Assembly: GCF_001999945.1 (NCBI RefSeq)
Contig: NZ_CP019650.1
Location: 1,178,001 to 1,242,000, forward strand
Reading direction: 5' to 3'
DNA length: 64,000 nt
DNA from: Microbulbifer agarilyticus
GTDB taxonomy: Bacteria > Pseudomonadota > Gammaproteobacteria > Pseudomonadales > Cellvibrionaceae
A program made the position numbers and the translations under genes. Numbering within the stretch: the first letter of the stretch is position 1; every line of letters begins with the position of its first letter. Below the pieces are notes generated by a model. The model saw only the letters and a list, made by a program, of their open reading frames with translations, did no database searches and had not been told where the DNA came from. This document shows, piece after piece, positions 12,184 to 56,300 of the stretch.

Positions 12184-12188
12184 ATAAG

Positions 12189-16348: not shown

Positions 16349-16417
16349 CTAGCGCATAAAAGATATATCTTTATTCTCGAACGATGTTTTGCCCAAGAGC
16401 ATGCTCGGTAATGGGGT

Positions 16418-34214: not shown

Positions 34215-34396
34215 TTGGTTGTCCGGAATAACTGTTTTCTATCCCGCTTTACCTCATCGGGGCGTTTACTCGCTTTGTTCAGTGACATATTGAACCCGGT
34301 TTATCCGAGCGACAAGTTCTTGAACGGTTACTCGGATAACGTGTTTTAGCCGTTAAATCACAAATAACAATAGTAATGAAACGGAGCGACTATCTG

Positions 34397-36226
34397 ATGA
34401 AGAATGAAAATGGGTGTGCATTTCCTGTAGGAAAAGCACGTAAAAGCATGCTTTTGGCCGCGCTGGCGCTGATGTCCAGTAGCGTCTTTGCGGTTGAACC
34501 ACTGTCTGTTAATGGTAACCAAGTATTGATTGGTGGCCAGCAAGGTAGTGTGGCAGGCAACAGTTTCTTCTGGAGTAACAATGGCTGGGGGGGCGAGAAG
34601 TTTTATAACCCAAGTACCGTCAGCTGGTTGAAGTCCGATTGGAAGTCCGGCGTGGTACGTGCTGCCATGGGCGTGGAAGATCCGGGCGGCTACTTTGATG
34701 ATCCTGCAGGGAACGAAGCTAAAGTTCGTGCCATTGTAGATGCAGCCATTGCCAACGACATGTACGTGATTATCGATTGGCACTCCCATTACGCGAATGA
34801 ACATGACTGGAGTCAGGCGGTCAATTTCTTCTCGCGCATGGCCGCCGATTATGGTCATACCAACAATGTTATTTACGAGATTTTTAACGAGCCGAAGCAG
34901 GTCTCTTGGTCCAGTGGCGTTAAGCCATACGCAGAATCCGTTATCTCATCAATCCGTTCAATTGACCCGGACAACCTGATTATTGTCGGCACCCCGAACT
35001 GGTCTCAAGACGTGGATGACGCTTCCTTTGACCCCATCCAGGGCCACGTCAACATTGCCTACGGCCTGCACTTCTACTCCGGTTCCCACGGCCAATGGTT
35101 ACGTGACAAGGCGCAGACCGCGTTGAATAACGGTATCGCGTTGTTTGTGACCGAGTGGGGCACCGTCAATGCCGATGGTAACGGCGGTGTTAACTACGGT
35201 GAGACCGATGCGTGGATGGAATTTCTTAAGAACAACAATATCAGTCATGCCAACTGGTCGATCAACGATAAGTCCGAAGGTGCCTCTGCACTGGTACCAG
35301 GTGCAAGTACCACTGGCAGCTGGGATTCCGCCCAGTTGACGGCATCGGGCAACAAGGTCCGCGACATTATTCTCAACTGGGGTGGCGCCGCAGGAGGCGG
35401 TGATGACTGCGATTCTGCAACTGCGGTGAATGTACCCGGACGCATCGAAGCCGAAGCGTTTTGTGGCGCCGATGGGATACAAACCGAAGCCACCAGCGAT
35501 ACCGGCGGGGGTGAAAACGTTGGCTATATCGATATCGACGATTGGATGGCCTATCGCATCAATGTTCCGGCGGCAGGTGATTACGAAATTTCTTATCGTG
35601 TAGCGGCCAATGGTGCAGGTGGTGTATTGCAGTTTGAAGGTAAAGGTGGTTCACCGGTATATGGTCAGCTTGACATACCCAACACCGGGGATTGGCAGTC
35701 TTGGACAACAATATCTCAAACTGTAAGTCTGCCGGCAGGTGATCAGCAGGTAGCGGTCGCCGCAGTAGGCCCAGGCTGGAATATCAACTGGCTGGATATT
35801 AAGTCTGTTGGCCCCAATCCAGACCCCGATCCAAAACCCGGTGAAACCATTCTCATCGAGGCGGAGAACTACAGCTTCATGGGTGGTGTGGAAGTGGAGT
35901 CCACCTCCGATGTAGGCGGTGGCCAGAATGTAGGCTATCTCGATGACGGTGACTGGATGGCATACCACGGTGTAAACGTACCGAGTGCTGGCAACTACCG
36001 CGTGGAGTTCCGGGTAGCCTCTCAGGGCGGCGGCCAGCTGAGCTTCGAACGAGCGGGCGGCAGTCCGGTATACGGCACCCTGAACGTGCCCGCCACCGGT
36101 GATTGGCAGAACTGGACCACGATAAGCATGGATGTTTATCTGGACGCAGGTTCTCAGGACTTTGGTATCGGCGTACCGACTGGTGGCTGGAACCTGAACT
36201 GGTTTAGTTTGACCAAGCTCGATTGA
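34397..36226 (+). CDS. Secreted GH5 endoglucanase with two CBM6 domains
   Basis: The 609-residue precursor has a signal peptide ending SSSVFA. The GH5 domain (about residues 35-330) carries the acid/base Glu at about 165 in VIYEIFNEPK and the nucleophile Glu at about 253 in LFVTEWGT; the layout fits the GH5_2 endo-beta-1,4-glucanase type. Two CBM6 modules follow, at about 350-470 (IEAEAFCGADGIQTEATSD, WNINWLDI) and 485-609 (IEAENYSFMGGVEVESTSD, WNLNWFSL), joined by a PNPDPDPKP linker. CBM6 binds beta-glucans or xylan. An in-frame ATG at 34376 exists, but the ATG at 34397 has GGAG upstream. A terminator follows. It shares its enzyme type with the gene at 43817. Confidence 0.9.
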   Translation: MKNENGCAFPVGKARKSMLLAALALMSSSVFAVEPLSVNGNQVLIGGQQGSVAGNSFFWSNNGWGGEKFYNPSTVSWLKSDWKSGVVRAAMGVEDPGGYFDDPAGNEAKVRAIVDAAIANDMYVIIDWHSHYANEHDWSQAVNFFSRMAADYGHTNNVIYEIFNEPKQVSWSSGVKPYAESVISSIRSIDPDNLIIVGTPNWSQDVDDASFDPIQGHVNIAYGLHFYSGSHGQWLRDKAQTALNNGIALFVTEWGTVNADGNGGVNYGETDAWMEFLKNNNISHANWSINDKSEGASALVPGASTTGSWDSAQLTASGNKVRDIILNWGGAAGGGDDCDSATAVNVPGRIEAEAFCGADGIQTEATSDTGGGENVGYIDIDDWMAYRINVPAAGDYEISYRVAANGAGGVLQFEGKGGSPVYGQLDIPNTGDWQSWTTISQTVSLPAGDQQVAVAAVGPGWNINWLDIKSVGPNPDPDPKPGETILIEAENYSFMGGVEVESTSDVGGGQNVGYLDDGDWMAYHGVNVPSAGNYRVEFRVASQGGGQLSFERAGGSPVYGTLNVPATGDWQNWTTISMDVYLDAGSQDFGIGVPTGGWNLNWFSLTKLD

Positions 36227-36317: not shown

Positions 36318-36524
36318 TGTACTTATACACCTGCCTGCACGTTATCGCTTTTGACTTTGTGCTTTCCTAAACTCAGTGGATAAGTCCAAATCTGCGCGTT
36401 CGGCTGGCGTCAGGTCATGCGAACCCGTACGAAATTAAGAAAACTCTCTTATTGATACGACGCTCCCCAAGAATCTCCGTATTTTTCACTCCCTCAATAA
36501 TGAACAAATTCGATGGTGAGAATA

Positions 36525-39368
36525 ATGAAGAAGAACGGAAGAGCATCGCTAACGGTGCTGACCCTGTCCGCGCTGGCATTTGCCAGCTTGTCACTGGCGG
36601 AGGAGGTTAGTGTCCTCACTACCCAAGGCGACCGAGGCAAACTGCTACATGAACAGGTTCTTGACCTCCCGTTTACCCAGCCCGCCGCCACAAACGGGTT
36701 TGCGATTGAAATTGACCCTTCGCAAACGTTTCAATCCGTAACTGGCCTCGGCTATGCACTCACGCAAGCCAGTGCAGCGGCCATCCTTTTGCTACCAGAA
36801 GCCGAACAGAATGCGTTTCTAAACGAGATGTTCCATCCGCAGGTGGGAAACAACGTTTCCATGGTGCGAATCAGCATCGGCGCATCCGATCTCTCTACAT
36901 CTCTGTACACCTATAGTGACGAAACCCGCAGCCAGGAAAACTTTATTCCGGATCCGGGTAAGACCTACTACATCGACATGCCCGCCCACGGCGTGCGCCT
37001 GGGTGCCAGTGGCTCTAACGAAGATCCTTACACAGCACCTGACTCACCGCACGGGCCGGACTTCGAGTGGAAATTTGTCCCTGCGGGCGATGGATTGTTC
37101 TTTATTGATCGCGCTGCCGGTGGCAGCGTGCCTCGGTTGCGCACCGACGATACCAATATGGCGGATATGCAGGAAACTTCCTCTGACGGCTGGTGGGAAA
37201 AATGGGAGCTGACACCCGGCGAAGGGCATGGCGCTTACTTCCTATCATTGCCGCTAAAAGGCTTCGGAAATCACGACCGGCTGCATATCGATGACAATCT
37301 TCTGGTTCGCATGGTAGATAACGACCAATCTGCCGGCACCTGGGAATCCTTTACCTTTACCGAAGTAGGCAGCGACCGCAGTTTCTCTATGCAGGGGCCT
37401 GACACGCTGACCTTGCTCCCTGTGCTAAAGAAAATCCTCGCCATAAATCCAGAGATCAAAGTCCTCGCCACGCCGTGGACTGCACCATTGTGGATGAAAA
37501 CCAACAATGACTGGGTCGGCGGGGCGCTCAAGTCCGAGCACTACGCCGATTTGGCTAACTATTTTGTGCAATATATTCAGGCCATGGCTGCTGAGGGTAT
37601 TACGATCTGGGGGATGACGCCGCAAAACGAGCCAGAAAACCCTTGGAATGAACCCAGTATGCTGATGAATGCCGAGCAGCAGTACGACCTGATAGAAAAC
37701 TATGTCGGCCCGGCATTGCAGCAAGCCGGTCTTGGACATATCAAATTACTCGGCTTTGATCACAATCTCGACCACCCGGAGTTTCCCATCCGCGTAGCCC
37801 AGAGCCAGTACATTGATGGTTCCGCGTTCCACCTGTACGCGGGTGAAATAAGTACCATGAGTGATGTTTATCACGCGAGTGGTAAAGACGTTTACTTTAC
37901 CGAGCAATGGACAGGCAGGCCCGAAGACGATACGCCCGCGGGATGGGCTGCGGCGTTTGATGGCGACCTCGCCTGGCATATGGAAACGGTGGTAATGGGT
38001 TCCCTACGGAACTATGCGCGCACAGTACTCGAATGGAACCTCGTAACCTCACCGCCTACCACCCCAACCGGTTGTACTGCGTGCCTGGGCGCGATCACCG
38101 TAGAAGAGGGTGGGCAGGGGCTTACGCGTCATGTGTCTTACTACATTATTTCGCAACTCTCCCGCTTTATGCAGCCTGGTGCGCGCCGAGTTGCGTCCAC
38201 AGACTTCTCTGAAAGCATCGTAAACGTTGCGCTGAAAAATCCAGATGGCACTTTGGTGGCTCTGGTGTACAACAAGTCGAATAGCGATCAGATGGTTTCG
38301 GTTGCATGGGAGGACTCGGCGTTCGAGCATACTATCGCTCCGCGTACCGCGGTAACCTTTCGCTGGCAGTCAGATGTGCCGGTGGCGGATGAGGACGGGG
38401 ACACCGTGCCGGACCGGCTCGACCAGTGCCCGGGCACTCCCACAGGTGTAGAAGTAGACAGCCTAGGCTGTCCCGTTCCCGGCGATGATGACGAAGATGG
38501 CGTGAGTAACGATGTCGATTTGTGTCCGCAAACACCGCTCGACGCACCGGTGGATGGTGACGGTTGTTCGCTGTTGGATGATGACAACGACGGGGTGCGC
38601 AACCCCTTCGACGCCTGTCCGCAGACCGTCGGCTCTGCAAAAAACAGTGGCTGCCCAATTGAAAGTGATTCCGTGCGTATTCAGGCAGAACACTGGCGCG
38701 AGGCCGGGGAGGTTCAAATTGAGCCAACGTCCGACATCGATGGTGGAGACAATGTGGGCTGGATTGACGCCGGAGATTGGATGACCTACAGCATCCACTT
38801 GCCAGCCAGCAATACAGGTCGCTATGAGGTGAGCTATCGTGTGGCGTCCGCGAGTAACGGCGGGGGTTTAACGCTGGAGCAACCCGGAGGCTCCGTGGAA
38901 TACGGAACCCTCAATTTCAGCGCTACGGGAGGCTGGCAGAATTGGGCCACCGTATCTCATACAGTTTCCCTACCGGCAAATACCTCAGAACTTGCGATTG
39001 CTGCCATAAGCGGCGGATGGAATATCAACTGGTTTGAAATTAAACCGGTTACAGATTCCAGTTGCAACAACGATCCAAGTTGTCTGGATGACGACAACGA
39101 TGGTGTTGTTAATGCAGCAGATCAGTGCACTGCAACGGCACCCGGTGTCACTGTCGACAGCAAAGGATGTACAGTGACTACCAACCAGTGTGATGGCATT
39201 ACCGCTTATCCGTACTGGCTTCACGCCGATTATGCGGGCGGTCCCAACACCCACCTTCTTGGCGGAGATCAAATGACCTATCAGGGAAATTTATATCAGG
39301 CGAACTGGTACACCAATAGCGAGCCTGGAAGTGATAACTCCTGGACACTGATTGGTAGCTGCCAGTAG
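36525..39368 (+). CDS. Secreted GH30 enzyme with an inserted domain, TSP3, CBM6 and CBM5/12
   Basis: The 947-residue precursor has a signal peptide ending SLSLA. The GH30 core has SVTGLGYALTQASAAAILLL, MVRISIGASDLSTSLYTYSD, the acid/base Glu at about 369 in TPQNEPEN and the nucleophile Glu at about 460 in VYFTEQWTG. Between the IGASD strand and the next barrel element lies an extra block of about 140 residues (139-282). C-terminal to the enzyme come Asp-rich TSP3-like calcium repeats (about 625-705), a CBM6, a second short TSP3 and a CBM5/12 ending [10 protein letters not shown]30 of this type hydrolyses beta-1,6- or beta-1,3-glucans or glucosylceramides; the substrate is unproven. GGTGAG precedes this ATG; a start four codons upstream is possible. 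Confidence 0.87.
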   Translation: MKKNGRASLTVLTLSALAFASLSLAEEVSVLTTQGDRGKLLHEQVLDLPFTQPAATNGFAIEIDPSQTFQSVTGLGYALTQASAAAILLLPEAEQNAFLNEMFHPQVGNNVSMVRISIGASDLSTSLYTYSDETRSQENFIPDPGKTYYIDMPAHGVRLGASGSNEDPYTAPDSPHGPDFEWKFVPAGDGLFFIDRAAGGSVPRLRTDDTNMADMQETSSDGWWEKWELTPGEGHGAYFLSLPLKGFGNHDRLHIDDNLLVRMVDNDQSAGTWESFTFTEVGSDRSFSMQGPDTLTLLPVLKKILAINPEIKVLATPWTAPLWMKTNNDWVGGALKSEHYADLANYFVQYIQAMAAEGITIWGMTPQNEPENPWNEPSMLMNAEQQYDLIENYVGPALQQAGLGHIKLLGFDHNLDHPEFPIRVAQSQYIDGSAFHLYAGEISTMSDVYHASGKDVYFTEQWTGRPEDDTPAGWAAAFDGDLAWHMETVVMGSLRNYARTVLEWNLVTSPPTTPTGCTACLGAITVEEGGQGLTRHVSYYIISQLSRFMQPGARRVASTDFSESIVNVALKNPDGTLVALVYNKSNSDQMVSVAWEDSAFEHTIAPRTAVTFRWQSDVPVADEDGDTVPDRLDQCPGTPTGVEVDSLGCPVPGDDDEDGVSNDVDLCPQTPLDAPVDGDGCSLLDDDNDGVRNPFDACPQTVGSAKNSGCPIESDSVRIQAEHWREAGEVQIEPTSDIDGGDNVGWIDAGDWMTYSIHLPASNTGRYEVSYRVASASNGGGLTLEQPGGSVEYGTLNFSATGGWQNWATVSHTVSLPANTSELAIAAISGGWNINWFEIKPVTDSSCNNDPSCLDDDNDGVVNAADQCTATAPGVTVDSKGCTVTTNQCDGITAYPYWLHADYAGGPNTHLLGGDQMTYQGNLYQANWYTNSEPGSDNSWTLIGSCQ

Positions 39369-39529: not shown

Positions 39530-41650
39530 TTAGGGTTGCAAAGCAGTTACTTTTAGTAAAATACCGGGATGGTCTGATGGGGCGGCGTCAATACTTTTTC
39601 CGCTGCCTTTAACGTCTCGTGCAAAGCCGCAGTCAATACCATCTCCATAAAGAAGCGACAAGTCTGTACTGGAAGCGAGTGCCTGGGTTGTCGCACTATC
39701 GCAGGCTGTATTGAAATCGCCCACCACCAGTAGCGGGATTCCGCGTAAGTGCGGAGAGGTTGCAGCGGCGGTGGTTTCTCGACTATTGGCGCGACGCACC
39801 CGTTCGCTTTCGTGATCCCAGTGTACGTCAATCAGGCCGAAACGATCGACACCACGTCGAACGACAACCAATTCACCTGTGCGTACTGCGTTTGGTCCAT
39901 CAGTCATATCAAAGCGTTCATTGTGCTCGAATTCCAGCCCCCTACAGCGGTTGGCAAAAACTTGATAGCGGCGCACCCAACAGTTTCCCAAAGCGCTGGC
40001 CAGAGCTTCTGCACGTCGGTAATCGGTGGGCAGGCCTTGAATCTGCCAATCTTCGACACCTTCCTGCACAGCCAGCAGATCTACATTGTGGTCGGTAACG
40101 AGCTGCGCATACCTGGTCGCGGCCGCCGGCATAGTGCCATGACCGTAAATATTCAGGGATAGAACCGCGAGGGGCTCGGCATCATTGCGTGATTTCTCAG
40201 GGTTTTGGTTATCGTGTACCTCTTTGGGTAACTCTTCAGGTAATTCGAATAATGAATTTTCCTCAAAGCGTGGGATGTGCCAGTAATCGCTTTTTGTATC
40301 TATCGAGCCTCCCAGTTCGTCTTTAACTACTCGATCTACGATACTCACGCCCACCCGCGCCATGTCAGAAAAGGTATCTTTACCGCTATTGGCAAACCCG
40401 CCACGGGTACGATGAATGTCGAATTCATCAGATAGTGGGCCAAACCACTCAGTGAGCTTTTCATGTCCGTAGATAAAACCCAGTAATCCGCCCCAGGTGG
40501 CGGCCGGGTTGTCGGAATCCCAACCCATTAACACCGCTAACTTTACGGTTTTTCGGTAGTCTCCTTCACCGTAGAACAGGCTGATTAAGCTTGCGCCGAA
40601 ATTGATGCCGGCGGCGAAGCAGCCGTTGCAATAGAGGTTACGTGTACTGAGGTCGTAACCAGCTTCGCCGTTGATTTGATATTTTTTATGCAGGCTATCG
40701 CGCACTGTTTCCCAGGGTACCTTTTGTTGGTACTGCTCTTGTACGAAGTCGTACATATCTGCATTGTAGCTTCCCGGCGGGAGCTGCTGGCGCGCACGTT
40801 CGGCGATGGCGAAGAGTTGTGGCTTAACCGGGCGCGTCGAATCGATGCCCGAAGCGAGAGCATGCATCACAACATAGAATTCGGCCGCCCAGGCGGCATT
40901 TTCACGTCCGGTGGTGCGGATGGGAAGGTGGGCCATGGCGAGGGCAATGTCCGGCCTTCCGGGCGCAAACAGGCCGAATATCTCCGTGGTCAGCTGCGCA
41001 TCAATCATGTCGAAGTGGGGGTTGTGGTTGGGTTCGCTGGTCTCCGGTGGCAGTAGAGATTGCTCACGCATTAAGTCGTGTGCCCGTTGGTTGGATACCC
41101 AGAGAAAGTTTTCCGCTTTCCCATCGGCAGTGGTGAAAGGGGTGTTTTCGTCCGAATAGATATGCGTGAGCCAGCCGTCGCGAATTTGCTCGGGGGTGAG
41201 CATTGTAGTCTGGTGTTGATCCAGTAGGTGCTGATATATGTATTCGATATCGGTGTCGTCATCCGCTCCCCACACTTCCCCAGGCCGGCGCAGAACCCAG
41301 TCGATGGTTGCGGACAAGTCACTGGGCACACCTTGCCCCCAAATACTGGGCTGATCTGGTTTTCCCCAGTCGTCCCGGGTGTAGAAGACACCGTGCGGGC
41401 CCGGGCCACCGATTTTGTCCATTTCAGTGACTAGCCCCGTCCAGTTGGCAAGACTTTGTCCCAACCAGAAGCCGCGTAGTTTGTTCTGGTACTGCGTACG
41501 CGTGAGCGGAAGAATCCCGTACGTGGTGACACTTATCGCCGGAGTAGCGGCGAAAGACGATGCTCCACTAAGGCTGCTGACCAAAACTAGAATTCCGGTC
41601 GTATAGGCTGTCGCTGCGCAGATTTTTTGGAAAAGTGGGTTTTGTGCCAT
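39530..41650 (-). CDS. Secreted ADP-ribosylglycohydrolase-like / EEP-domain fusion protein
   Basis: The 706-residue precursor has an N-terminal hydrophobic signal ending SSFAATP. Residues about 45-440 look like an ADP-ribosylglycohydrolase fold: YQNKLRGFWLGQSLANWTG, the metal motif ADDDTDIEY, and VLMGWDSDNPAATWGGLLGF. Residues about 490-705 look like an endonuclease/exonuclease/phosphatase domain: AVLSLNIYGHGTM, LAVQEG, VVGDFNTACD and the final SDHPGILL. I have not seen this combination described. Secretion and the glucanase neighbours suggest an N- or O-glycoside target rather than ADP-ribosyl protein, but this is inference. GGAG precedes the ATG at 41650; a TTG lies two codons upstream. The C-terminal domain is compact and may lack parts. 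Confidence 0.8.
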   Translation of the reverse strand: MAQNPLFQKICAATAYTTGILVLVSSLSGASSFAATPAISVTTYGILPLTRTQYQNKLRGFWLGQSLANWTGLVTEMDKIGGPGPHGVFYTRDDWGKPDQPSIWGQGVPSDLSATIDWVLRRPGEVWGADDDTDIEYIYQHLLDQHQTTMLTPEQIRDGWLTHIYSDENTPFTTADGKAENFLWVSNQRAHDLMREQSLLPPETSEPNHNPHFDMIDAQLTTEIFGLFAPGRPDIALAMAHLPIRTTGRENAAWAAEFYVVMHALASGIDSTRPVKPQLFAIAERARQQLPPGSYNADMYDFVQEQYQQKVPWETVRDSLHKKYQINGEAGYDLSTRNLYCNGCFAAGINFGASLISLFYGEGDYRKTVKLAVLMGWDSDNPAATWGGLLGFIYGHEKLTEWFGPLSDEFDIHRTRGGFANSGKDTFSDMARVGVSIVDRVVKDELGGSIDTKSDYWHIPRFEENSLFELPEELPKEVHDNQNPEKSRNDAEPLAVLSLNIYGHGTMPAAATRYAQLVTDHNVDLLAVQEGVEDWQIQGLPTDYRRAEALASALGNCWVRRYQVFANRCRGLEFEHNERFDMTDGPNAVRTGELVVVRRGVDRFGLIDVHWDHESERVRRANSRETTAAATSPHLRGIPLLVVGDFNTACDSATTQALASSTDLSLLYGDGIDCGFARDVKGSGKSIDAAPSDHPGILLKVTALQP

Positions 41651-41731: not shown

Positions 41732-43384
41732 TCAATCGGCTTTCGTGTAAACGCGCTCGCCTTCAACCCAGGTTTCGGCAACTTCTACCTGCCAAATATC
41801 TTCCGGGGCAATCGCAAATATATTTTTCTCCAGTAGGATAAAGTCCGCGAACTTCCCCGGTTCCAGATTGCCGATCAGGTTTTCCTGGTGGCTTGCATAG
41901 GCTGCATCCAGGGTGAATGCCCGTAACGCTTCAGTGAGTGTCATGGCTTGCTCTGGCCGCCAACCGCCTTGCGGCGTATCGGCACGATCTTGCCGGGTAA
42001 CCGCGGCATGGAGCCCAAACAACGGGTTGGCGGGCTCCACCGGGAAGTCGGACCCTCCCGCGATCTTGGTGCCTTGTTCTAGAAAGGTGCGCCATGCGTA
42101 GGCGCCTTCGAGGCGTTCTTCACCCAGTCGGTCACCAGCCATGTTTTTGTCGCTGGTAGCGTGGGTGGGCTGCATTGAGGCGATCAGGCCGAGCGATGGG
42201 AATCGTGGTATATCGTTTTTCAGCATGACCTGAGCATGCTCAACCCTGTGGCGGTACGGTTTCTGGTTGTTGTCTTTGTGCAGGGTGTACAAATGGTTGA
42301 GTACAATGTGATTGGCACGATCGCCAATGGCATGTACGTTGACCTGGAAGTCGTGCTCGGTTGCAAGCCGTAGTAGCGAGAGGATTTTATCTTCCGGGTG
42401 GAGCAGGAGGCCGCGTTCATCGGGCTTGTCCTGATACGGGGCGAGTAGCGCTGCGCCATGGCTGCCAAGTGCTCCGTCGGCCGAGAGTTTGATGCTGCGC
42501 ACGTAGAGTCGCTGGTCGGGCGCGCCGATGGAGCCGGCTTTGAGGAGTGTTGTGAGGTTTTCATCCTCGATGGCAATCATTGGGTAAATGCGCAGTGGAA
42601 TGGCACCCTCGGCGGCGAGTTCACGGTAGGCCTGCAGGGTATTACTGTCCACCCCGGCGTCGTGAATACCGGTCAGGCCCAGTGACAGGGCGCTTTTGAA
42701 TGCGGCCTTTAACGAGGCTTTATCCTGTTGCAGCCCCGCTTGAGGAATGGCGCGCTCCAGTAGCAGCATGGCATTGTCTATCAGGATCCCGCTCGGCTCA
42801 CCCAATCGGTCTTTGATGATCTCACCACCCTCCGGATTTTCCGTTTCTCGGTCGATGCCGGCGAGCCGCAAGGCGGCAGAGTTGGCCCAACCTGCGTGAC
42901 CATCAACCCGGCGTAGCCAGACGGGATTGGGGATGTCGAGCTTGTCGAGTGCAGACTTTGTGGGGAATCGCTTGCCAGACCAGAGTACTTGGTTCCAGCC
43001 GCGCCCCAAAATCCATTCGTTCGCAGCTTTATCTTTGGCAAATGTTCTTGTGGCGCCGAGGGTTTCTTCCAGGGAAAGATCCCTTACATCTAATTCCTGC
43101 CTTAGTCGTCCGAGTGCGAGGACGTGACCATGTGCATCTATTAGCCCAGGCAATAGTGTCCTGCCTCCAGCATCCCGTGCGTTTGATCCGGGGAATTTTT
43201 CCTTCAAATCTGCCAGTTTGCCGGTTGCCAAGATCTTGCCATCGTCAAAGATCAGCGCCTCAAATGACTCAAGGCCATCAGATGTCGTGTGATAGCCAGC
43301 AATATTGTGGATAAGCGTAGCGGCCTGGATGTTGCTACATGCCAGAGCAAGAATGGCTATGAGGAGCGTGCGGGTGAAGTGCAT
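41732..43384 (-). CDS. Exported YtcJ-type metal-dependent amidohydrolase
   Basis: The 550-residue precursor begins MHFTRTLLIAILALACSNIQ; either a lipobox (LALAC) or cleavage after IQA is possible. The amidohydrolase-3 fold is shown by LLPGLIDAHGHVLALG (metal His pair), the YtcJ segment GRGWNQVLWSGKRFPTKSAL, His in NVHAIGDRAN and HRVEHAQV, and Asp in IAGGSDFPVEPANPLFGLHA. The family hydrolyses C-N bonds of unidentified small amides. It lies 81 bp upstream of the fusion gene and may be co-transcribed with it. The link to glucan use is by position only. Confidence 0.88.
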   Translation of the reverse strand: MHFTRTLLIAILALACSNIQAATLIHNIAGYHTTSDGLESFEALIFDDGKILATGKLADLKEKFPGSNARDAGGRTLLPGLIDAHGHVLALGRLRQELDVRDLSLEETLGATRTFAKDKAANEWILGRGWNQVLWSGKRFPTKSALDKLDIPNPVWLRRVDGHAGWANSAALRLAGIDRETENPEGGEIIKDRLGEPSGILIDNAMLLLERAIPQAGLQQDKASLKAAFKSALSLGLTGIHDAGVDSNTLQAYRELAAEGAIPLRIYPMIAIEDENLTTLLKAGSIGAPDQRLYVRSIKLSADGALGSHGAALLAPYQDKPDERGLLLHPEDKILSLLRLATEHDFQVNVHAIGDRANHIVLNHLYTLHKDNNQKPYRHRVEHAQVMLKNDIPRFPSLGLIASMQPTHATSDKNMAGDRLGEERLEGAYAWRTFLEQGTKIAGGSDFPVEPANPLFGLHAAVTRQDRADTPQGGWRPEQAMTLTEALRAFTLDAAYASHQENLIGNLEPGKFADFILLEKNIFAIAPEDIWQVEVAETWVEGERVYTKAD

Positions 43385-43816
43385 CGGGAGTCCACCTGTA
43401 TTTGATTATTATGTATTTGCTACCTTTATACGTCTTTTTGCAGCCTTGTGGAATGACATTGTAGTGGGATGACATCTGACACAGGTTATCTGAGGATAGG
43501 GGCGGCTGACTATAGTTACGCGGTGTTTAGGACGAGGAGAGAGCACCTGGAACTCCTTCTTCTCTGTTACCACTGGCGAGTTTTTCGCTAAAAAATTTTA
43601 TCTATGTATTAATCCGCTTTATCGATTTTTTTTATTTCTTTTCTTTTGGTCGTGTATAGAGACAAAAAGTCTTTTTCCGTACTGACTCCTTTTCGATATG
43701 GTTCTTGTGTACCAGTTTTCGTCCCAGGTTCGTTTAATACTGGTTTTGGTACGACTTTTGGTTTCTTCGTCTCTAGATTTTGCTCTCCCAACAATAACTC
43801 TTAGATGGTGAGAATA
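43385..43816. other. Divergent promoter region with a direct repeat
   Basis: About 432 bp between the leftward amidohydrolase and rightward GH5 gene. GGAATGACAT at 43450-43459 is repeated as GGGATGACAT at 43466-43475, 16 bp apart, which puts both on nearly the same helix face region for a tandem-binding regulator. Near the GH5 gene, GTACCAGT and ACTGGTTTTGGTAC (about 43710-43750) form an imperfect inverted pair. The last bases before the start (GGTGAGAATA) repeat those before the GH30 gene. Confidence 0.45.
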
Positions 43817-45952
43817 ATGAATCAAAAAAGTAGACGTAGGTCCATTCTCGGTCGGGCCGGAAAAAAAGTCGCCGCAGTGTGTTCGGTGCTTGGTCTTATG
43901 GTCGCAGCGAGTGGTGCGGCGGCAGTAGAACCATTGCGTGTGGAAGGCAATAAGGTATTGGTGGGGGGGCAGGTAAAGAGCCTTGAAGGTATTTCCCTGT
44001 TTTGGAGTAATAACAACTGGGGCGGAGAGAAGTACTACACCGCCGCTGAAGTAGCTCGCATCAAGAATGAATTTGGTGCAAACATTGTCCGTGCGGCCAT
44101 TGGTCACGGTGAGCCCGGTGGCGTGCAGGATGATTGGGCTTCGAATATGCAGCGCCTGGATACCGTCGTACAGGCCGCGATCGATAACGATATGTATGTA
44201 ATTGTGGATTATCACAGTCATATCGCTCATACGAATCCCGGGGCTGCGGAAGATTTTTTCCGAGCGGTAGCACAGAAGTGGGGCCAGCACGACAACGTTA
44301 TCTACGAAATCTACAACGAGCCCAAGCACGTTGATTGGCACTCCACACTGAAGCCTTACGCGGAGCAAGTTGGCAATACCATCCGCTCTATCGACCCGGA
44401 CAACCTGATTATTATGGGGACACCTAAGTGGTCCCAGGATGTCGATATTGCCTCAACCAACCCGGCCAATGTTTCGAACCTGGCCTACACCATCCATTTC
44501 TACGCGAATACCCACAGAGCCGAATTGCGGGCCAAAGCGCAGGCGGCCCTGAATAACGGCATTGCTTTGTTTGCCACTGAATGGGGCATGGTGAATGCTA
44601 ACGGGGCGGGTCCGGTTAATCGGGATGAAACATGGGCGTGGATCGACTTCTTGCGTAGTAACGGCATTAGTCATGCCGCCTGGGCCTACAACGATAAAGA
44701 CTTTAATCACCTGGGCGAAGAAGAATCCAGCTCATTCTTCTGGTCCGATGGTACTTTGAAAGAATCCGGGTATTTCATCAAGGAGATTCTTGGTGGCCGT
44801 GAGCCAACCGAAACCATCATTGATGGTCCTTGTGATGTGGGTGGCAACGGTACCCAGATTGAAGCAGAGAGCTTCTGCCAGGCAAAAGGTGTTGAATTCG
44901 AAACCACCAGTGATTTTGGTGGCGGCGAGAATGCCGGCTGGATTGACAATGGCGATTGGCTGACCTTTGACGTGAATTTGCCACAGGCAGGCACCGCAAC
45001 CGTTACCTACCGCGTTGCTTCCGGCGTGGACGGTGGCCGCATTAAGCTGGAGCAGGGTGGTGGTGAGAACACCTATGGTGTTGTCGATGTACCAAATACC
45101 GGTGACTGGCAGGGCTGGATGGATATCTCCCATCAGGTACAGCTTCCGGCGGGTCAGCAGATCCTAGGTGTTGTCGCTGAAGTTGGCGGCTGGAACCTGA
45201 ACTGGTTGCGAGTTGATGTCGAGCCGTGCACTACAGACTGCAATCCTGGTGGAGAAGTTGTACGTGTTGAAGCGGAAAACTGGCGTGATGCAGGCGACGT
45301 CCAAGTAGAGGCAACTACCGACGTCGGTGGTGGTCAGAATGTGGGCTGGATCGATGCCGGTGACTGGATGACTTATAACGTTACCCTGCCTGCAAGCAGC
45401 ACCGGTAACTACGAGGTGAGCTATCGCGTGGCCTCTGAAAGTGGCGGCAGCCTGAAGCTGGAGCAGCCGGGTGGTTCTGTGGAGTACGGCGGCGTAAGCT
45501 TTGGAGGCACCGGAGGTTGGCAGAGCTGGACCACAGTTTCTCACACCGTTAGTCTGCCTGCTGGCACCACCGAACTCGCTATCGCTGCGGTCACTGGTGG
45601 TTGGAATATCAACTGGATTGAGATCAAGGCGGTCGGAGACTCCGGGTGCAACAATGATCCCAGCTGTCTGGATGACGACAACGACGGTGTAGTGAATTCT
45701 GCGGACCAGTGTCCGGCCACTCAACCCGGTGTGACGGTCGATAGCAGTGGCTGTGCTGTCACCACGGGTCAGTGTAGCGGTGTGACTGAGTACCCGAACT
45801 GGCTGCATGCGGACTATGACGGTGGTCCCAATACCCATTTGCTGGGCGGCGACCAAATGACCTATCAAGGCAATCTGTATCAGGCCAACTGGTACACCAA
45901 TAGCGTGCCGGGTAGCGACAATACCTGGACTCTGATTGGTAGCTGTCAGTAA
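43817..45952 (+). CDS. Secreted GH5 endoglucanase with two CBM6, TSP3 and CBM5/12
   Basis: The 711-residue precursor has a signal peptide ending ASGAAA. The GH5 domain (about 40-325) has the acid/base Glu at about 168 in [10 protein letters not shown] and the nucleophile Glu at about 255 in LFATEWGM. Two CBM6 modules follow (about 340-470 and 485-610), the second with [21 protein letters not shown] short TSP3 ([18 protein letters not shown]) and a CBM5/12 ([20 protein letters not shown] to WTLIGSC) end the protein. The last about 210 residues are nearly identical in order and sequence to those of the GH30 protein. GGTGAG lies ahead of this ATG; another ATG is four codons upstream. The calcium-binding TSP3 likely acts as a spacer. 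Confidence 0.91.
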
Positions 45953-46162: not shown

Positions 46163-47437
46163 ATGGCAGCTATCGGACCAGATATAGGGCAGGCTAGCAT
46201 TAGTCGTGTCGATGAAGGGGCATCAAACCAGCAGTTTGCGTTGATTGCGTTGACGTCACTGTTTTTTATGTGGGGTTTCATTACTTGTCTGAATGACATT
46301 CTGATTCCGCACTTAAAAGGGGTCTTTGACCTTAGCTATACCCAGGCGATGCTGGTTCAGTTTTGTTTCTTTGGGGCCTATTTCCTTGTGTCTTTACCCG
46401 CAGGTAGGCTGGTAGAGCGAGTCGGCTATCAAAATGGTATTGTCATTGGGTTGGGGATCGCGGTCATTGGTTGTGCCCTGTTTATCCCGGCTGCGCGCAT
46501 TCAGGTGTACAGTCTGTTTTTGTTCGCGTTGTTTGTATTGGCGGCGGGTATTACCGTATTGCAGGTATCCGCTAACCCGTATGTTACGGCTCTTGGTGCA
46601 GAAGAAACTGCTGCAAGCCGACTAACGCTCACCCAGGCTTTCAACTCACTCGGTACCACTGTGGCACCGTTCTTCGGCACCGCGTTAATCCTTTCGGTTG
46701 CTGGTGTTGCCGCTTCGGATATTTCAGGTGTCGAGGGCGCATCGGCAGTAGAGCTACCCTATATGATCCTGGCTGCGAGCCTGGCCGTGTTGGCGTTTAC
46801 CTTTCGCTTTCTGAAACTCCCTAAGATTGAGAGCCATATGGGCGCAGATCAGGCCGCCGAGAAGGTTGGTCGCTGGGAAGCGTTAAAGCATCGCCATCTT
46901 GCGCTGGGTGTTGTGGCGATCTTTTTGTATGTGGGCGCCGAAGTGTCTATTGGTAGCTTCCTGGTTAACTTCCTGTCCGAGAGCAATATTGCCGGCATTA
47001 CCGAGCATGAGGCAGGCTTCTACGTATCTCTCTTCTGGGGTGGTGCGATGGTTGGGCGCTTTATCGGGGCCGCGGTGATGCAATATGTCTCCGCGGGTAA
47101 AGTACTTGCTGTATGTTCTATCGGGGCAGTGATTCTGTTGCTGCTGACGATTTTTGGTTCGGGTCAGCTGGCAATGTGGAGCGTACTTTCTATTGGCCTG
47201 TGTAACTCGGTAATGTTCCCGGCTATTTTCAGCCTTGCGTTGGCGCGTTTGGGGCCGTTGACCAGTCAGGGTTCTGGCTTCCTGTGCCTGGCGATTGTCG
47301 GTGGTGCGCTGGTACCGCTCGCACAGGGTGCACTGGCGGATAGTATTGGCATCCAGATGGCGTTTGCGCTACCTATCATCTGCTATGTGTATATTATGTA
47401 CTATGGAATAAAAGGACACTTTGTTCGCGAAGCATAG
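46163..47437 (+). CDS. gluP: GluP/FucP-type sugar:proton symporter 1
   Basis: The 424-residue, 12-helix major-facilitator protein belongs to the FHS group. It has [20 protein letters not shown] in helix 1 (the Asn-Asp pair is typical of FucP/GluP), [20 protein letters not shown], and [19 protein letters not shown] with [19 protein letters not shown]. Members import glucose, galactose or fucose with protons. It stands alone after the glucanase genes with its own promoter and is followed by a terminator shared with the LytTR regulator. The precise sugar is not deducible; glucose would fit the context. Confidence 0.88.
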
Positions 47438-47493: not shown

Positions 47494-48318
47494 TCAAATA
47501 GCGGCTGTGGTTTGATTGTGCTCCAAATATTCTTTAATTGACTGCCGATAATTTCGGCTGACCTTGACCTTTTCGGCGCTTCTTAGGGTGAGTAAAAACT
47601 CGCCCTTGGTCAGAACCTGAATCTCTTGAATGTAGTTTAGGTTTACCAGAGTTGATCGGTGTACACGTTTGAAGGTGTTGGGACACAATTGCTGTTGCAA
47701 CTCTTTCAGTGTGCTCCGCATGATGTGGGTTTCACCTTTGGTGTGTACACACATATAGTCGCCAGCGGCATCAATCCATTCTATGTCCGACTGATTTGCC
47801 AGAATGATCCGGCCTCCGTCTTTGATCGCCAGTTTGCCAGGGGAATCAGCGGCGGCTGTTTCTCCCGCCTCCGGTGATGAATGAGTGGCAAGGGAGGTTA
47901 GCAAGCGTCCTTTTTCATCGGCCTGATTATACTGACCTTGTTGTCCTTGCTGGCGCAGTCGTGCTCGAGCGCGGTCAACTGCTAGGGCAAGCCGCTCCGG
48001 CTCCATGGGCTTCAATACATAGTCTACTGCGTTTACATCGAAAGCTTCGACAGCATAGTGATCGTATGCGGTCGCGAAGACTACTTGAGGAATAATGTCG
48101 CCCTGTAGCCTTCCAATCACATCAAACCCATTCATGCCGGGCATCTGTATATCCAGAAATAGTAAGTCAGGTAAATGGGTAGCGACCGCGTTGAGTGCTT
48201 CACGACCGTTGCGGCATGTAGCGATTACCTCTATTTCAGGTATATCCCCCAGCAGTGATTGCAGCAGCTGTAGAGCCAGGGGTTCATCATCCACCAATAC
48301 CGCTTTCAGTGGGGCCAT
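47494..48318 (-). CDS. LytTR-family response regulator
   Basis: The 274-residue protein has an N-terminal receiver domain (VLVDDEPLALQLLQ; phospho-acceptor Asp in LLFLDIQMPGMNGFD; switch residues in FATAYD; Lys in YVLKPM). A Gln-rich linker follows, and then a LytTR DNA-binding domain (DYMCVHTKGETHIMRSTLKE, FKRVHRSTLVNLNYI). LytTR regulators bind pairs of direct repeats. The start overlaps the end of the kinase gene, so the pair forms an operon. It lies between two GluP-like permease genes, so sugar-linked control of these or the glucanases is plausible. Confidence 0.92.
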   Translation of the reverse strand: MAPLKAVLVDDEPLALQLLQSLLGDIPEIEVIATCRNGREALNAVATHLPDLLFLDIQMPGMNGFDVIGRLQGDIIPQVVFATAYDHYAVEAFDVNAVDYVLKPMEPERLALAVDRARARLRQQGQQGQYNQADEKGRLLTSLATHSSPEAGETAAADSPGKLAIKDGGRIILANQSDIEWIDAAGDYMCVHTKGETHIMRSTLKELQQQLCPNTFKRVHRSTLVNLNYIQEIQVLTKGEFLLTLRSAEKVKVSRNYRQSIKEYLEHNQTTAAI

Positions 48319-49835: not shown

Positions 49836-51140
49836 ATGAATGAGTTAGTGCCTGAGCGTGCCAGTGGCGCAGCGACAGAGGTAGGCACCTATACCGTGGG
49901 TAAGCGTACGGGACTGTTTGTTCTGACAGTGCTGTTTTTTGTCTGGGGCTTTATTACCAGCCTGAATGACATTCTGGTGCCGCATTTAAAGAGTGCGTTT
50001 GACCTGAGTTATACCAAAGCAATTTTGGTGCAGTTCAGTTTTTTTGCGGCATACTTTCTGGTATCCGTGCCGGCCGGCATGTTAATTCGCCGGGTCGGAT
50101 ATCAGCTAGGCATTGTGCTCGGCTTATTGATCGCCTGTGCTGGCTGTTTATTGTTTATTCCTGCCGCCCGTATGCATGTTTACATGATGTTCCTATTGGG
50201 GTTGTTTGTGCTGGCAAGTGGCATTGCTATTTTGCAGGTTTCCGCCAACCCTTATGTCATTGCTTTGGGGCGCCCAGAAAGCGCTCCTAGTCGGCTGAAT
50301 TTGACCCAGGCATTCAATTCGCTGGGGACATCACTGGCGCCCATTTTTGGTGCGCTCGTCATATTCTCCGCGAGTGCCGGTGTTGTACATTTTTCGTCAG
50401 TGCAAACTACACTCAATTACCCTGCCAGTGAGGCTGCTTCGGTCGAGCTACCCTATTTTTGGCTCGCGGTCGTACTGCTCGCCCTCGTAGCGTTCTTTTC
50501 CTGGGTTAGCCTTCCAACAATTAAAGAGGAAGGCGAGGCGCGAGAAGAGACAACACACCGGATCGTTGGGTTCTTCGAGTTTCTTCTGTTTCCACGGTTG
50601 GCCCTGGGTGCGGTGGCCATATTCTTTTATGTGGGCGCGGAGGTGGCGATTGGTAGTTTTCTCGTTAGCTATGTAACTGAGAAATCCGTTGGCGATATGG
50701 GAGTGAGCGAGGCTGCCCGCTATGTGTCGCTCTATTGGGCCGGCGCGATGATTGGGCGCTTTATTGGGGCAGGATTACTGAATTTTGTACGCTCAGGAGC
50801 ATTGCTTGCGATTTGTGGCTTTAGTGCGGTAGTGCTGATTTCGCTATCGATTACTTCCGAGGGGGACCTGGCTGTGTGGACAATCGTAGCGGTTGGTCTG
50901 TGCAATTCGATTATGTTCCCTACTATCTTTAGTCTTGCACTGGGTGGGCTTCGTCAGTTCACTAGTCAGGGGTCTGGTGTCTTGTGCATGGCTATTGTTG
51001 GCGGCGCGATTGTGCCTCTCTTTCAGGGAGTTGCTGCTGATAGTGCGGGCATTCGACTTTCTTTTGTTGTCCCGTTAATTTGCTACTGTTATATCGTCTA
51101 CTACGGTGCATTTTCGCCATTTCTGCGCAATAAAAAGTAA
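49836..51140 (+). CDS. GluP/FucP-type sugar:proton symporter 2
   Basis: The 434-residue, 12-helix protein is a close paralogue of the permease at 46163. It shares [54 protein letters not shown] and [19 protein letters not shown], and a similar C-terminus. The N-terminus is 10 residues longer, and the loop after helix 6 differs (TIKEEGEAREETTHRIVG). It is followed by the GH3 beta-glucosidase gene, so the pair may handle glucan-derived glucose or disaccharide. The two permease genes bracket the LytS/LytTR pair. Confidence 0.88.
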   Translation: MNELVPERASGAATEVGTYTVGKRTGLFVLTVLFFVWGFITSLNDILVPHLKSAFDLSYTKAILVQFSFFAAYFLVSVPAGMLIRRVGYQLGIVLGLLIACAGCLLFIPAARMHVYMMFLLGLFVLASGIAILQVSANPYVIALGRPESAPSRLNLTQAFNSLGTSLAPIFGALVIFSASAGVVHFSSVQTTLNYPASEAASVELPYFWLAVVLLALVAFFSWVSLPTIKEEGEAREETTHRIVGFFEFLLFPRLALGAVAIFFYVGAEVAIGSFLVSYVTEKSVGDMGVSEAARYVSLYWAGAMIGRFIGAGLLNFVRSGALLAICGFSAVVLISLSITSEGDLAVWTIVAVGLCNSIMFPTIFSLALGGLRQFTSQGSGVLCMAIVGGAIVPLFQGVAADSAGIRLSFVVPLICYCYIVYYGAFSPFLRNKK

Positions 51141-51504: not shown

Positions 51505-53337
51505 ATGAAGTGGATTTCTTGCCTGAGCGCAGTTGCTACGTTACTTGTGAGTAGCAGTAGTATTGCTGCACAGGACGTTGAAAAGCGGGTTTCAGCGCTC
51601 ATTGAACGTATGTCGTTAGCTGAAAAAATAGGACAAATGACCCAGGCAGAGCGGTCTCATGCAAGTCCGAAAGATGTGAAAGACTACTTTATCGGGTCCA
51701 TTCTCAATGGTGGCGGTTCTGTACCCGGCGAAAATGAGAGAAGCGATTGGGTTGGGATGATCAGCGACTATCAGGATGCCGCGCGGTCAACCCGACTTGG
51801 TATTCCCATTTTGTATGGCACTGATGCAGTTCATGGCCACAGCAATGTAAAGAATGCGACGATTTTTCCTCATAACGTTGGTCTGGGTGCGACGCGTAAT
51901 CCAGAACTGGCGTATTCCATCGGTCTGGCTACCGCAAAAGAAGTCGCTGCCACGGGTATCCACTGGACATTCGCTCCGACCCTGTGTGTCGCCCGCGATG
52001 ATCGTTGGGGGCGCGCCTATGAGTGCTTTGGTGAGGAGCCTTCCCTGGTCGCAGAGTTTGCTGAGCCCTTCGTAAAAGGTTTGCAAGGGGATACATTGAA
52101 CGGCAACACTATTGGCGAAAACCGTGTAATTGCGACGGCGAAACATTGGGTAGCTGATGGCGGCACCACCTATGGAACCGGTGATGAGGGTTATGCGATC
52201 GACCGTGGCGATACGCAGCTGACGGATGAAGAATTGCAGCGACTGCATATTTCTCCCTACCTGCCAGCTTTGTCGTCGGATGTAGGCTCGGTAATGGTTT
52301 CCTACAGTAGTGTGAATGGGAAAAAAATGCATGAACACAAGGGATTGGTGAGCGATCTCCTCAAAGACGAGCTGGGATTTGTTGGTTTTACAATTTCCGA
52401 TTGGTCTGCATTGGGCGAAATTCCAGCAGAAACAAATCGTGAGCGAGTGGTCCGCTCCATTAACGCCGGCCTTGATATGATCATGGAACCAGAGAAATGG
52501 CAGGAATTTATCACCGACCTGACTGCGGCAGTAAAGGCTGGTGAAGTACCGATGGAGCGCATTGACGAGGCAGTGAGACGTATTCTTCTGGTTAAGGCAA
52601 GTTCAGGACTGCTCGAAAATCCGGTATCACCTTTGGCACTCAGTGCACAGGGCGATAGTGTCCTCGGCAATGATGAGCACCGTGCGCTCGCACGCCAGGC
52701 GGTACGTGAGTCAATGGTGTTGCTGAAGAACGAAAAGTCGCTGCTACCAATTGAGAAAAAGTCCAAAATATTTGTTGCCGGCGTACATGCCAACGATATT
52801 GGTTTCCAGTCAGGCGGGTGGACGCTTGAGTGGCAGGGTAAATCAGGAATTGATACGCAGGGCACGACGATTCTTGAAGGTATCCAGGCAGCGGTATCCA
52901 CGGTTACCTACAGTGAAGATGGCAAAGGCGTCGAAGGCCATGATGTGGCGATTGTTGTGGTCGGCGAAGACCCATACGCGGAAGGTTGGGGAGACTATCG
53001 TCCGGCGCCATGTGAAAAATGTAAGCCAATGAGCCTATCAGCTGAACAGCGTCAGTTGCTGGATCGTGTGACCGATAGTGGCGTACCGACGGTTGTCGTG
53101 ATTGTTTCCGGTCGTCCATTAATGGTTTCCGACCAGATATCCGATTGGCAATCTGTTGTTGCCGCATGGCTCCCTGGTACCGAGGGCGCTGGTGTGGCCG
53201 ATGTACTGTTTGGCGAATATGCGCCAACCGGAAAGTTGCCGGTGACCTGGCCACGTAATCTGGCTCAGATCCCGATCAACTTTGGTGATGAGGATTATGA
53301 TCCGCTGTTTCCTTATGGATTCGGTCTGAGTTATTAA
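51505..53337 (+). CDS. Exported GH3 beta-glucosidase / exo-glucanase
   Basis: The 610-residue precursor has a signal peptide ending SSSIAA. The GH3 N-terminal barrel shows MSLAEKIGQMTQAERSHASP, GTDAVHGHSNVKNATIFPHN, ATAKHWVADGGTTYG and the nucleophile Asp at about residue 298 in VGFTISDWSAL. The C-terminal alpha/beta sandwich (about 390-605) has REAVRESMVLLKNE-type sequence and ends PYGFGLSY, where many GH3 enzymes continue into a fibronectin domain. This one stops, so it is the two-domain form like plant exo-glucanases. It removes glucose from glucan oligomers, probably in the periplasm. GGAG lies before the ATG. Confidence 0.92.
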   Translation: MKWISCLSAVATLLVSSSSIAAQDVEKRVSALIERMSLAEKIGQMTQAERSHASPKDVKDYFIGSILNGGGSVPGENERSDWVGMISDYQDAARSTRLGIPILYGTDAVHGHSNVKNATIFPHNVGLGATRNPELAYSIGLATAKEVAATGIHWTFAPTLCVARDDRWGRAYECFGEEPSLVAEFAEPFVKGLQGDTLNGNTIGENRVIATAKHWVADGGTTYGTGDEGYAIDRGDTQLTDEELQRLHISPYLPALSSDVGSVMVSYSSVNGKKMHEHKGLVSDLLKDELGFVGFTISDWSALGEIPAETNRERVVRSINAGLDMIMEPEKWQEFITDLTAAVKAGEVPMERIDEAVRRILLVKASSGLLENPVSPLALSAQGDSVLGNDEHRALARQAVRESMVLLKNEKSLLPIEKKSKIFVAGVHANDIGFQSGGWTLEWQGKSGIDTQGTTILEGIQAAVSTVTYSEDGKGVEGHDVAIVVVGEDPYAEGWGDYRPAPCEKCKPMSLSAEQRQLLDRVTDSGVPTVVVIVSGRPLMVSDQISDWQSVVAAWLPGTEGAGVADVLFGEYAPTGKLPVTWPRNLAQIPINFGDEDYDPLFPYGFGLSY

Positions 53338-54900: not shown

Positions 54901-56300
54901 AAGCGCGCTCCTCTATTAGTGGTTTTCGGCAGCGTTGCAAGGTAGTCAGTATACGCAGGAGCTCTTTGCGCGGCCTCTTGATAGTGTGGCCACAAGGCGT
55001 TGAGCCAGTTTGCATAATCTTTATCGTTTCCGGGCTCGGGAATACTGCCTTTGCGCGGCCTAATACCCGCAAAAGTGGGCAGTATTTGCCAGAGAGATTT
55101 GCCCACAACTTCGTGATCAGTTTGCGGAGTTTGACCGCAGGCGCGTAGTAGTGCCAAACGGTGCCTATTCGTGCGGGTAAGGAAACCTGTCTGTCCTGCG
55201 AGCCAGTTGCATAGATTCTGCAGGTCGTTCACTTCATCGCGATAAAGAGCAGATTCAAGGTTGAACTGTTTCTGTTGGAGTTGCCAGCCTTGGGTCTCGT
55301 TAAGAAGTGGTAGGAGCTGTTGGAGCTGGAACTGGGTCACGGCTAACGGATTCGTACTGTAACCGGGATCCGCCCAGGCTGGGCCCATGGCAAGTATATT
55401 TTGCACCCATGCATTCTGAAATTGTGGCTGTAGCTCTGCCTGGATCTCGTACTCGAACCGCTGACCACGTACTTTGAGTTGCCAGGATGTCCGTTCAAGA
55501 TGTAATTGTGCAAAGGTTTTACGACCGGCTTCTTTCGCTCCAGGGATCTGTGATGCATTGATCTGGCGATATATGGGAATACCGGGGCAGGGCTGGTAGT
55601 GCTGGTCCCCATGCCGATGGTCGTCGGCCAACTGGTGCATCAATTGGCCGTCACAGTCGACGATCAGGTCGCTTGTTAGAATACGACCGTCTTCCAGTTG
55701 CAGCGAGTTGGTACGTGTGTTGTCAGCTTCCCGAAAGAGCTGAACGTTTTGTTCGATGACGTTGAGCCGGCGGGCGTCGGCTATTTGGGACAGGAATTCG
55801 CAATACTCTTTACTGGAGCACTGTAGGCCAGCTTGGGTGGTTTGATAGACATCGGCGCTGTTGCGGTCTGCGAGTAGGTAACGACCTTTCTGAGCCATCA
55901 GACAGGCAATATTAAACCGGCTCGCTTCGATCTTCATTCCGAGCCGGTGTGATCGTTGCCACCACAGAAAAAATGCTTGTCGGTGGTGTTCGAATCCGTA
56001 GCCGCCACTTGCCAGCCACAATGGCTCATGCATATAGGAGCTTCCCGGTGATGTTACCGCGCATGCCAGTAATATGTCTGCCATATCCGCAGTGATGAAC
56101 TCGACCGGGTCAATCCCAATGTTGCCGTGCGCCAGAGCCATATCCTCGGTGAGAATAAGGGGAGTATTGCGTGAATTGTGAGGCGCTGCCAGGGTGACGT
56201 TACATGCCTGCGTGGGTAGTTGCTGTGTCAGGAATAGGAGTGTGTACCAGGCGCTCGGATTGTTGCCTACTACGGTTATGTTCAGTGGATTACTTTTCAT
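54897..56300 (-). CDS. Diverged halogenase-family protein B lacking key motifs
   Basis: The 467-residue protein has a family-like N-terminus, NITVVGNNPSAWYTLLFLTQ, where GGGTAG is replaced by GNNPSA. LFLTQQLP and ILTEDMALAHGNIGIDPVEF align with the neighbours. The catalytic Lys motif is replaced (FFLWWQRSHRLGMKIEASRF), and no WxWxIP sequence is seen. The frame is intact, overlaps both neighbours by four bases and shows no decay. It is therefore probably a non-halogenating partner or a subunit of A and C rather than a pseudogene. Its function is not known. Confidence 0.78.
   Translation of the reverse strand: MKSNPLNITVVGNNPSAWYTLLFLTQQLPTQACNVTLAAPHNSRNTPLILTEDMALAHGNIGIDPVEFITADMADILLACAVTSPGSSYMHEPLWLASGGYGFEHHRQAFFLWWQRSHRLGMKIEASRFNIACLMAQKGRYLLADRNSADVYQTTQAGLQCSSKEYCEFLSQIADARRLNVIEQNVQLFREADNTRTNSLQLEDGRILTSDLIVDCDGQLMHQLADDHRHGDQHYQPCPGIPIYRQINASQIPGAKEAGRKTFAQLHLERTSWQLKVRGQRFEYEIQAELQPQFQNAWVQNILAMGPAWADPGYSTNPLAVTQFQLQQLLPLLNETQGWQLQQKQFNLESALYRDEVNDLQNLCNWLAGQTGFLTRTNRHRLALLRACGQTPQTDHEVVGKSLWQILPTFAGIRPRKGSIPEPGNDKDYANWLNALWPHYQEAAQRAPAYTDYLATLPKTTNRGARL

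Follow-up and report, generated by a model that had tools for sequence, protein, structure and literature searches.

In a 64,000-nucleotide stretch of Microbulbifer agarilyticus DNA (NZ_CP019650.1, positions 1,178,001 to 1,242,000; hereafter the window), a single gene on the minus strand joins an ADP-ribosylglycohydrolase-like (ADPRGH) domain to an exonuclease-endonuclease-phosphatase (EEP) domain. Our preferred explanation, to which we give a probability of roughly 0.4, is that this gene encodes a secreted two-headed accessory enzyme which removes a phosphorylated, probably ribosyl-like, substituent from beta-glucan in two steps. The EEP head, as a metal-dependent phosphoesterase, would hydrolyze a phosphoester on the glucan, either removing phosphate or cutting a phosphodiester, and the ADPRGH head, which has an intact acidic metal site, would then cleave the glycosidic bond of the furanosyl (probably ribosyl-like) unit. 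Once bared of its substituent, the backbone would be degraded by the neighboring glycoside hydrolases (GH) of families GH5, GH30 and GH3, and the products would be taken up via TonB and GluP routes. The two families and their genomic context are our grounds for inferring a single, glycan-bound substrate for both heads, a ribose-like sugar and this order of steps. The two-step reading is suggested by the fusion of EEP domains to GH16 and to the carbohydrate-binding modules (CBM) CBM56 and CBM6, by EEP-ADPRGH gene pairs located beside GH5 and GH3 genes, and by ADPRGH relatives found in ribose-type operons.

The open reading frame (ORF) has an ATG start preceded by GGAG, and its product consists of an export signal, an ADPRGH-like domain (PF03747), a linker and a compact EEP domain (PF03372), in this order:

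39530 to 41650, minus strand: fused gene, ADP-ribosylglycohydrolase-like plus EEP, 706 amino acids (aa), single ORF with Pfam matches to both domains
41534 to 41650, minus strand: N-terminal export signal region, about residues 1 to 39, without a lipobox, judged by eye from the sequence
40256 to 41533, minus strand: ADP-ribosylglycohydrolase-like domain, residues 40 to 465 (PF03747, E 3.2e-24)
40175 to 40255, minus strand: 27-aa linker, residues 466 to 492, fast-evolving by dN/dS
39533 to 40174, minus strand: compact EEP domain, residues 493 to 706, with invariant residues, an AlphaFold2 model and an EEP fold

Numbered from an upstream TTG, the Pfam match to ADP_ribosyl_GH covers residues 63 to 401 (86.5 bits against a curated cut-off of 26.2) and that to Exo_endo_phos residues 499 to 672 (E 8.2e-7, above the curated cut-off). 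The sequence-only reading of this DNA had described one exported protein with both domain types, set among glucan glycoside hydrolases. Both domains were confirmed, with their catalytic residues kept; export is predicted from the signal, and the setting agrees with the GH5, GH30 and GH3 genes and the TonB receptor found in the locus. A lipobox was matched by regular expression in 8 of 19 stand-alone ADPRGH relatives, as compared to none of the four fused proteins.

The same reading had allowed that the C-terminal domain might be unrelated to EEP. In a 15-row EEP alignment, residues N500, E530, H610, D612, H613, D645, N647, D673, D693 and H694 were invariant, as were four cysteines (557, 569, 650 and 674); we take the N, E, H, DxN, D and DH residues to have the catalytic roles usual for this family. 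The AlphaFold2 model of the EEP domain is confident (mean pLDDT 88.5) and has the EEP fold, and together with the invariant catalytic residues it supports identification of the domain as a true EEP enzyme. The full-length model was poor (mean pLDDT 58.6) and neither the packing of the domains nor the ADPRGH fold was read from it; among the 50 matches listed in a fold search with this model, all were EEP proteins.

A frameshift or assembly artefact joining two genes, which the sequence-only reading had also raised, can be ruled out as the origin of the fusion because four of the 48 genus genomes have the frame intact, both domains are under purifying selection and an unfused ADPRGH copy was found in none of the 48. 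With the ADPRGH domain as query, the domain was present in only these four genomes and fused to EEP in all of them, and the EEP carriers of the genus were the same four. Pairwise dN/dS among the four fused copies was 0.06 to 0.15 for the ADPRGH domain and 0.09 to 0.18 for the EEP domain, compared to 0.17 to 1.51 for the linker, with dS near saturation for pairs involving G404. Stand-alone ADPRGH relatives end approximately where the linker begins (19 aligned rows, 49 to 60% identical to the window protein; the short ORF of L024 was omitted). The proposed search of other genomes for the same fusion succeeded within the genus and failed outside it: full-length queries gave no fused match in 100 family, 293 order and 369 class genomes or in the 295 available from the family of Pseudoalteromonas sp. 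NBT06-2, in searches that score just the top candidates of a loose first pass and may therefore miss some. An EEP profile search (E ≤ 1e-5) of 369 class and 200 phylum genomes matched only the genome of the window itself, and a single-sequence EEP search matched 6 of 144 family genomes. Six EEP loci were matched in named genomes. No EEP relative was found in viral contigs, where the ADPRGH profile matched one locus (L077), and the 14 plasmid records matched were each matched by the ADPRGH part only.

The partnership of the two enzymes extends beyond the fusion. In the NBT06-2 family (Pseudoalteromonas/Colwellia-type), EEP was found in 8 of 295 genomes, all eight of which also carry a close ADPRGH, compared to 26 of the 287 EEP-free genomes (Fisher p 1.4e-8, or 1.1e-6 without G955 and G956, which were EEP carriers known before the test; kinship is ignored in both values). 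Five of the 39 matched genomes had a weak ADPRGH (<80 bits) and were scored as lacking a close one. Both genes lie within about 3.1 kb of each other in six of the eight EEP genomes, the gap between the two matches being 154 bp in G1124, 317 bp in G1190, 1021 bp in G1031, 1140 bp in G1202, 2353 bp in G1162 and 3125 bp in G1062; in G1124, G1190, G1202 and G1162 the genes share a strand and EEP is the downstream one, the same order as in the fusion. The two genes are on different contigs in G955 and G956, and in G032 both are present but far apart. In total, EEP was found in 15 genomes, of which 13 also have a close ADPRGH; the exceptions are Bermanella, with EEP and no ADPRGH, and G021, with a distant ADPRGH copy only. 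The fusion unites in a single protein two enzymes which, in some other marine Gammaproteobacteria, are encoded by neighboring separate genes.

GH5 genes, as in the window, were found near five of the six adjacent pairs (all but G1124), GH3 near four (G1190, G1202, G1162 and G1031), a tryptophan halogenase near three (G1202, G1162 and G1031) and a TonB receptor also near three (G1190, G1202 and G1162), and AraC-type regulators occur around pairs as well. These counts refer to shared clusters with Pfam-scanned representatives, and gene absences on the short G1031 and G1062 contigs carry little weight; other neighbors were hand-picked and imply no frequencies, such as an alginate-lyase-family gene between ADPRGH and EEP in G1162 and an MGH1-like glycoside hydrolase in G1202. 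A PF00756 esterase gene lies between ADPRGH and EEP in G1202, G1162, G1031 and G1062, and also beside the Colwellia EEP (in loci L105, L106, L107, L108 and L110, two members were Pfam-scanned and the remainder assigned by cluster); this esterase may deesterify the same substrate.

In both the ADPRGH tree and the EEP tree the six adjacent pairs group as a single clade, indicating one ancestral linkage. The EEP tree was built without the Colwellia EEP row, which was included in the later analysis with the 15-row alignment. The fused ADPRGHs belong to a separate clade, and constraining fused and adjacent ADPRGHs together was rejected (p-AU 2e-69, 30 rows, after removal of three long-branch rows and with the group defined after the first tree had been inspected). 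EEP was therefore joined with ADPRGH in two or more lineages, unless one partner was replaced, and the coupling itself is well supported.

As a C-terminal module, EEP was also found with GH16 and CBM6 (L072, 1-1854), with CBM56 and two CBM6 (L018, 6289-8178) and with three CBM6 (L075, 6570-8633), and these proteins appear to represent a CBM-linked phosphoesterase type. The protein with three CBM6 adjoins GH16, GH5 and GH30-relative genes, and in that genome the ADPRGH gene comes after cellulase genes of families GH9 and GH5. When the EEP profile was compared to PDB, its sole EEP-family matches were four bacterial proteins, one of them named a sugar phosphatase; ubiquitin matches to a stretch of about 25 residues were rejected as a repeat artefact. 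The nearest solved relatives include the mannosyl-6-phosphatase Bt3783 (4c1r), with profile matches to Bt3783-type proteins at E 2e-5 to 8e-5 that span just about 60 residues. Among the substrates named in the sequence-only reading, a phosphorylated or nucleotide-linked sugar polymer fits best, given the EEP fusions to CBM and GH16, the pairs near GH5 and GH3 and the ribose-type operons, whereas extracellular DNA is disfavored because three genomes have EEP joined to glucan-binding modules and because of the narrow set of PDB matches.

In the ADPRGH head, E76, D131, D132, D378 and D380, which we take to be metal ligands, were invariant across eight diverse PF03747 family rows. The residue following the second DxD is Asn381, as compared to Thr in Lmo0067 (DTDT) in a weak alignment (E 0.99); since this position is N or C in four other PF03747 proteins compared, the substitution would not exclude membership in the wider family. 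Searched against PDB, the ADPRGH profile gave no match with E ≤ 0.01. Relatives are found with GH3, GH16 and a TonB receptor (L020, in clusters common to sister loci), after GH9 and GH5/CBM2 cellulase genes (G956), and elsewhere with a lytic polysaccharide monooxygenase, GH51, GH43 and GH97 or with Rbs-type importers (L062). In a Colwellia metagenome-assembled genome (L109, 119-10207), a ribose-type operon with a LacI regulator, a PfkB kinase and an Rbs-type ABC importer lies between two different ADPRGH genes, followed by a nucleoside hydrolase. Plasmid-borne relatives in Bacteroidota (P. distasonis and Flammeovirga) lie beside ribokinase and GRP transporter genes, in P. distasonis also with a nucleoside hydrolase. 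Some contexts are not sugar loci, and a further ADPRGH gene has been placed in a dissimilar setting, a Prevotella hemin locus (PMC10434189). As a separate observation, some stand-alone ADPRGH genes have phosphoesterases of other families (Metallophos, Phosphodiest and PhoX) within a few kb (L020 12316-14361; L060 9110-10819; L063 956-2395).

The fused gene is part of a region (34376 to 62302) which contains the following other features:

34376 to 36226, plus strand: GH5, cellulase-like, plus two CBM6; catalytic domain closest to cellulases
36513 to 39368, plus strand: GH30 plus CBM6 and CBM5/12, related to the endo-beta-1,6-glucanase BT3312 (PDB 5ngk, E 3.9e-70; Pfam)
41732 to 43384, minus strand: amidohydrolase (PF07969), 81 bp upstream of the fused gene on the same strand, with a signal-like N-terminus judged by eye
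43805 to 45952, plus strand: GH5, cellulase-like, plus two CBM6 and CBM5/12 (Pfam)
46163 to 47437, plus strand: GluP-type sugar transporter (TIGR01272 above cut-off)
49836 to 51140, plus strand: second GluP-type sugar transporter (TIGR01272 above cut-off)
51505 to 53337, plus strand: GH3 (domain scan)
53395 to 57844, minus strand: three tryptophan-halogenase family genes, a family also present in the G1202, G1162 and G1031 loci
57921 to 60830, minus strand: TonB-dependent receptor
61097 to 62302, plus strand: AraC-type regulator

With a TonB receptor, several glycoside hydrolases, a sugar transporter and a regulator together, this region can be assigned as a TonB-type polysaccharide utilization locus (PUL). 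Over its length, the GH5 at 43805 to 45952 is 54% identical to a GH5 of the G1190 locus and 57% identical to one of G1162 (714 aligned positions). The GH30, which may be specific for beta-1,6-glucan, scored 335 bits against NCBIfam NF053856, well under the cut-off of 700; an extra stretch of about 150 aa inside its catalytic region (around residues 130 to 285) had no Pfam match. The genes adjoining the fusion, including the amidohydrolase, are shared by G080 and G389; G404 lacks this amidohydrolase neighbor, and its fusion is surrounded by GH9, GH30, GH31 and GH5 genes. The amidohydrolase is in the same apparent operon as the fused gene, and amidohydrolases also occur near ADPRGH in L064 and L066. 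Elsewhere in the window, positions 8500 to 16400 are gene-poor, with small ORFs, an apparent IS3-type transposase ORF (11479 to 11949) and three 132-nt repeats (at 9816, 12596 and 14677). Compared to the repeat at 9816, identity is 73% for the one at 12596 and 70% for the one at 14677; an inverted repeat lies within the copy at 9816, and a GTTA-type end is present in the copies at 9816 and 12596. Judged by eye, the stretch resembles a small cassette array or a run of small genes spaced by repeats.

Several other explanations were considered for the fused enzyme. It could scavenge ribose and phosphate from ADP-ribose, NAD(P) or nucleotides of dead cells, with EEP opening the pyrophosphate or removing phosphate and ADPRGH freeing ribose, and the glucan locus would then be a mere setting of biomass feeding. 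This is unlikely, though worth keeping in view: the EEP fusions of three genomes are with glucan-binding modules and GH16, EEP lies near GH5 genes in five of six adjacent-pair loci, and neither a ribokinase nor an Rbs-type importer nor a nucleoside hydrolase was found in a Pfam scan of the locus that covered 14 of its 15 main genes (all but 47494-48318). An improbable alternative is that two independent activities without a common substrate were joined by chance. The presence of a close ADPRGH in EEP-free genomes and of EEP only in Bermanella would fit this, but the two enzymes are linked in two lineages whose ADPRGHs belong to different clades, and this argues against it, as does the high share of EEP-bearing genomes with a close ADPRGH.

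The similarity of EEP to Bt3783, together with the neighboring GH30 closest to BT3312, could also point to an attack on fungal cell walls, where EEP would cut mannosyl phosphates or the phosphodiesters of glycosylphosphatidylinositol (GPI)-mannoprotein/beta-1,6-glucan bridges; PMC5481569 describes mannoproteins cross-linked through GPI to beta-1,6-glucan. This is likewise improbable, considering that no GH92 or GH76 fungal alpha-mannan enzyme was found in the genome, that a relative of the window GH30 was matched only in L112 (= L075) among L103 to L112 (some on short contigs), that PMC5481569 reports a Saccharophagus GH30_3 also active on laminarin, and that no obvious role would be left for ADPRGH. 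Least probable would be a role as a secreted nuclease or as an effector directed at DNA or ADP-ribosylated proteins, since the fusions of EEP are with glucan-binding modules and its profile matches, among PDB EEPs, only four bacterial proteins, one of them named a sugar phosphatase. The fold comparison weighs against our glucan-substituent explanation on this point: the modeled domain scores nearly as high with nuclease-type EEPs, the Z lead of Bt3783-type structures over the best Tdp2 chain being only 0.5 to 1.7.

Under the preferred explanation of a two-step enzyme for a phosphorylated substituent, ADPRGH and EEP, named after ADP-ribosylation and nucleases, look like a paired carbohydrate-processing module; if this holds, a secreted ADPRGH subfamily would be reassigned, a phosphoesterase activity would be added to beta-glucan digestion, and a phosphorylated sugar substituent would be indicated on an abundant marine carbon pool. 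A wider claim, which we consider doubtful, is that marine or microbial beta-glucans bear an undescribed phospho-ribosyl-like (or ADP-ribose-like) decoration, for which Gammaproteobacteria built a dedicated ADPRGH and EEP pair in at least two lineages, fused in Microbulbifer. The fused protein could serve as a single-gene reagent to search for the substrate. Neither of the domain families is new, nor are TonB-type glucan loci; among the open-licence papers listed in searches, no report was found of the fusion, the ADPRGH/EEP gene pair or the CBM/GH16-EEP proteins.

Among known enzymes, Bt3783 (4c1r) and the structures 3mpr, 3g6s and 3l1w are 18 to 20% identical to the window EEP, which differs from them in its shorter length (214 residues versus chains of 252 to 271) and in the four invariant cysteines that characterize its group. 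Bt3783 has a role in yeast mannan use. The rus system of Bacteroides, reportedly described by Glowacki et al. in 2020, scavenges ribose; the comparable plasmid loci of P. distasonis and Flammeovirga have, along with ribokinase and the GRP transporter, an ADPRGH of the same Pfam family as the window domain, to which it is 23 to 25% identical, with no EEP annotated in the stretches examined. The window locus differs from such loci in having no ribokinase or nucleoside hydrolase among its scanned genes. In Cnuibacter (WP_085021867), ADPRGH is likewise part of a multidomain protein, there joined to carbohydrate-binding modules (CBM4_9 and CBM6/35) beside sugar ABC-uptake genes, whereas its partner in the window is the EEP enzyme. 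BT3312 is an endo-beta-1,6-glucanase encoded in a PUL for fungal glucan (PMC5481569), and this Bacteroides beta-1,6-glucan locus (BT3312 GH30_3, GH3) and the window locus have in common a BT3312-related GH30, a GH3 and TonB-type uptake. Beyond this shared set, the window locus carries GH5s, CBM6 and CBM5_12 modules, halogenases and the ADPRGH-EEP fusion.
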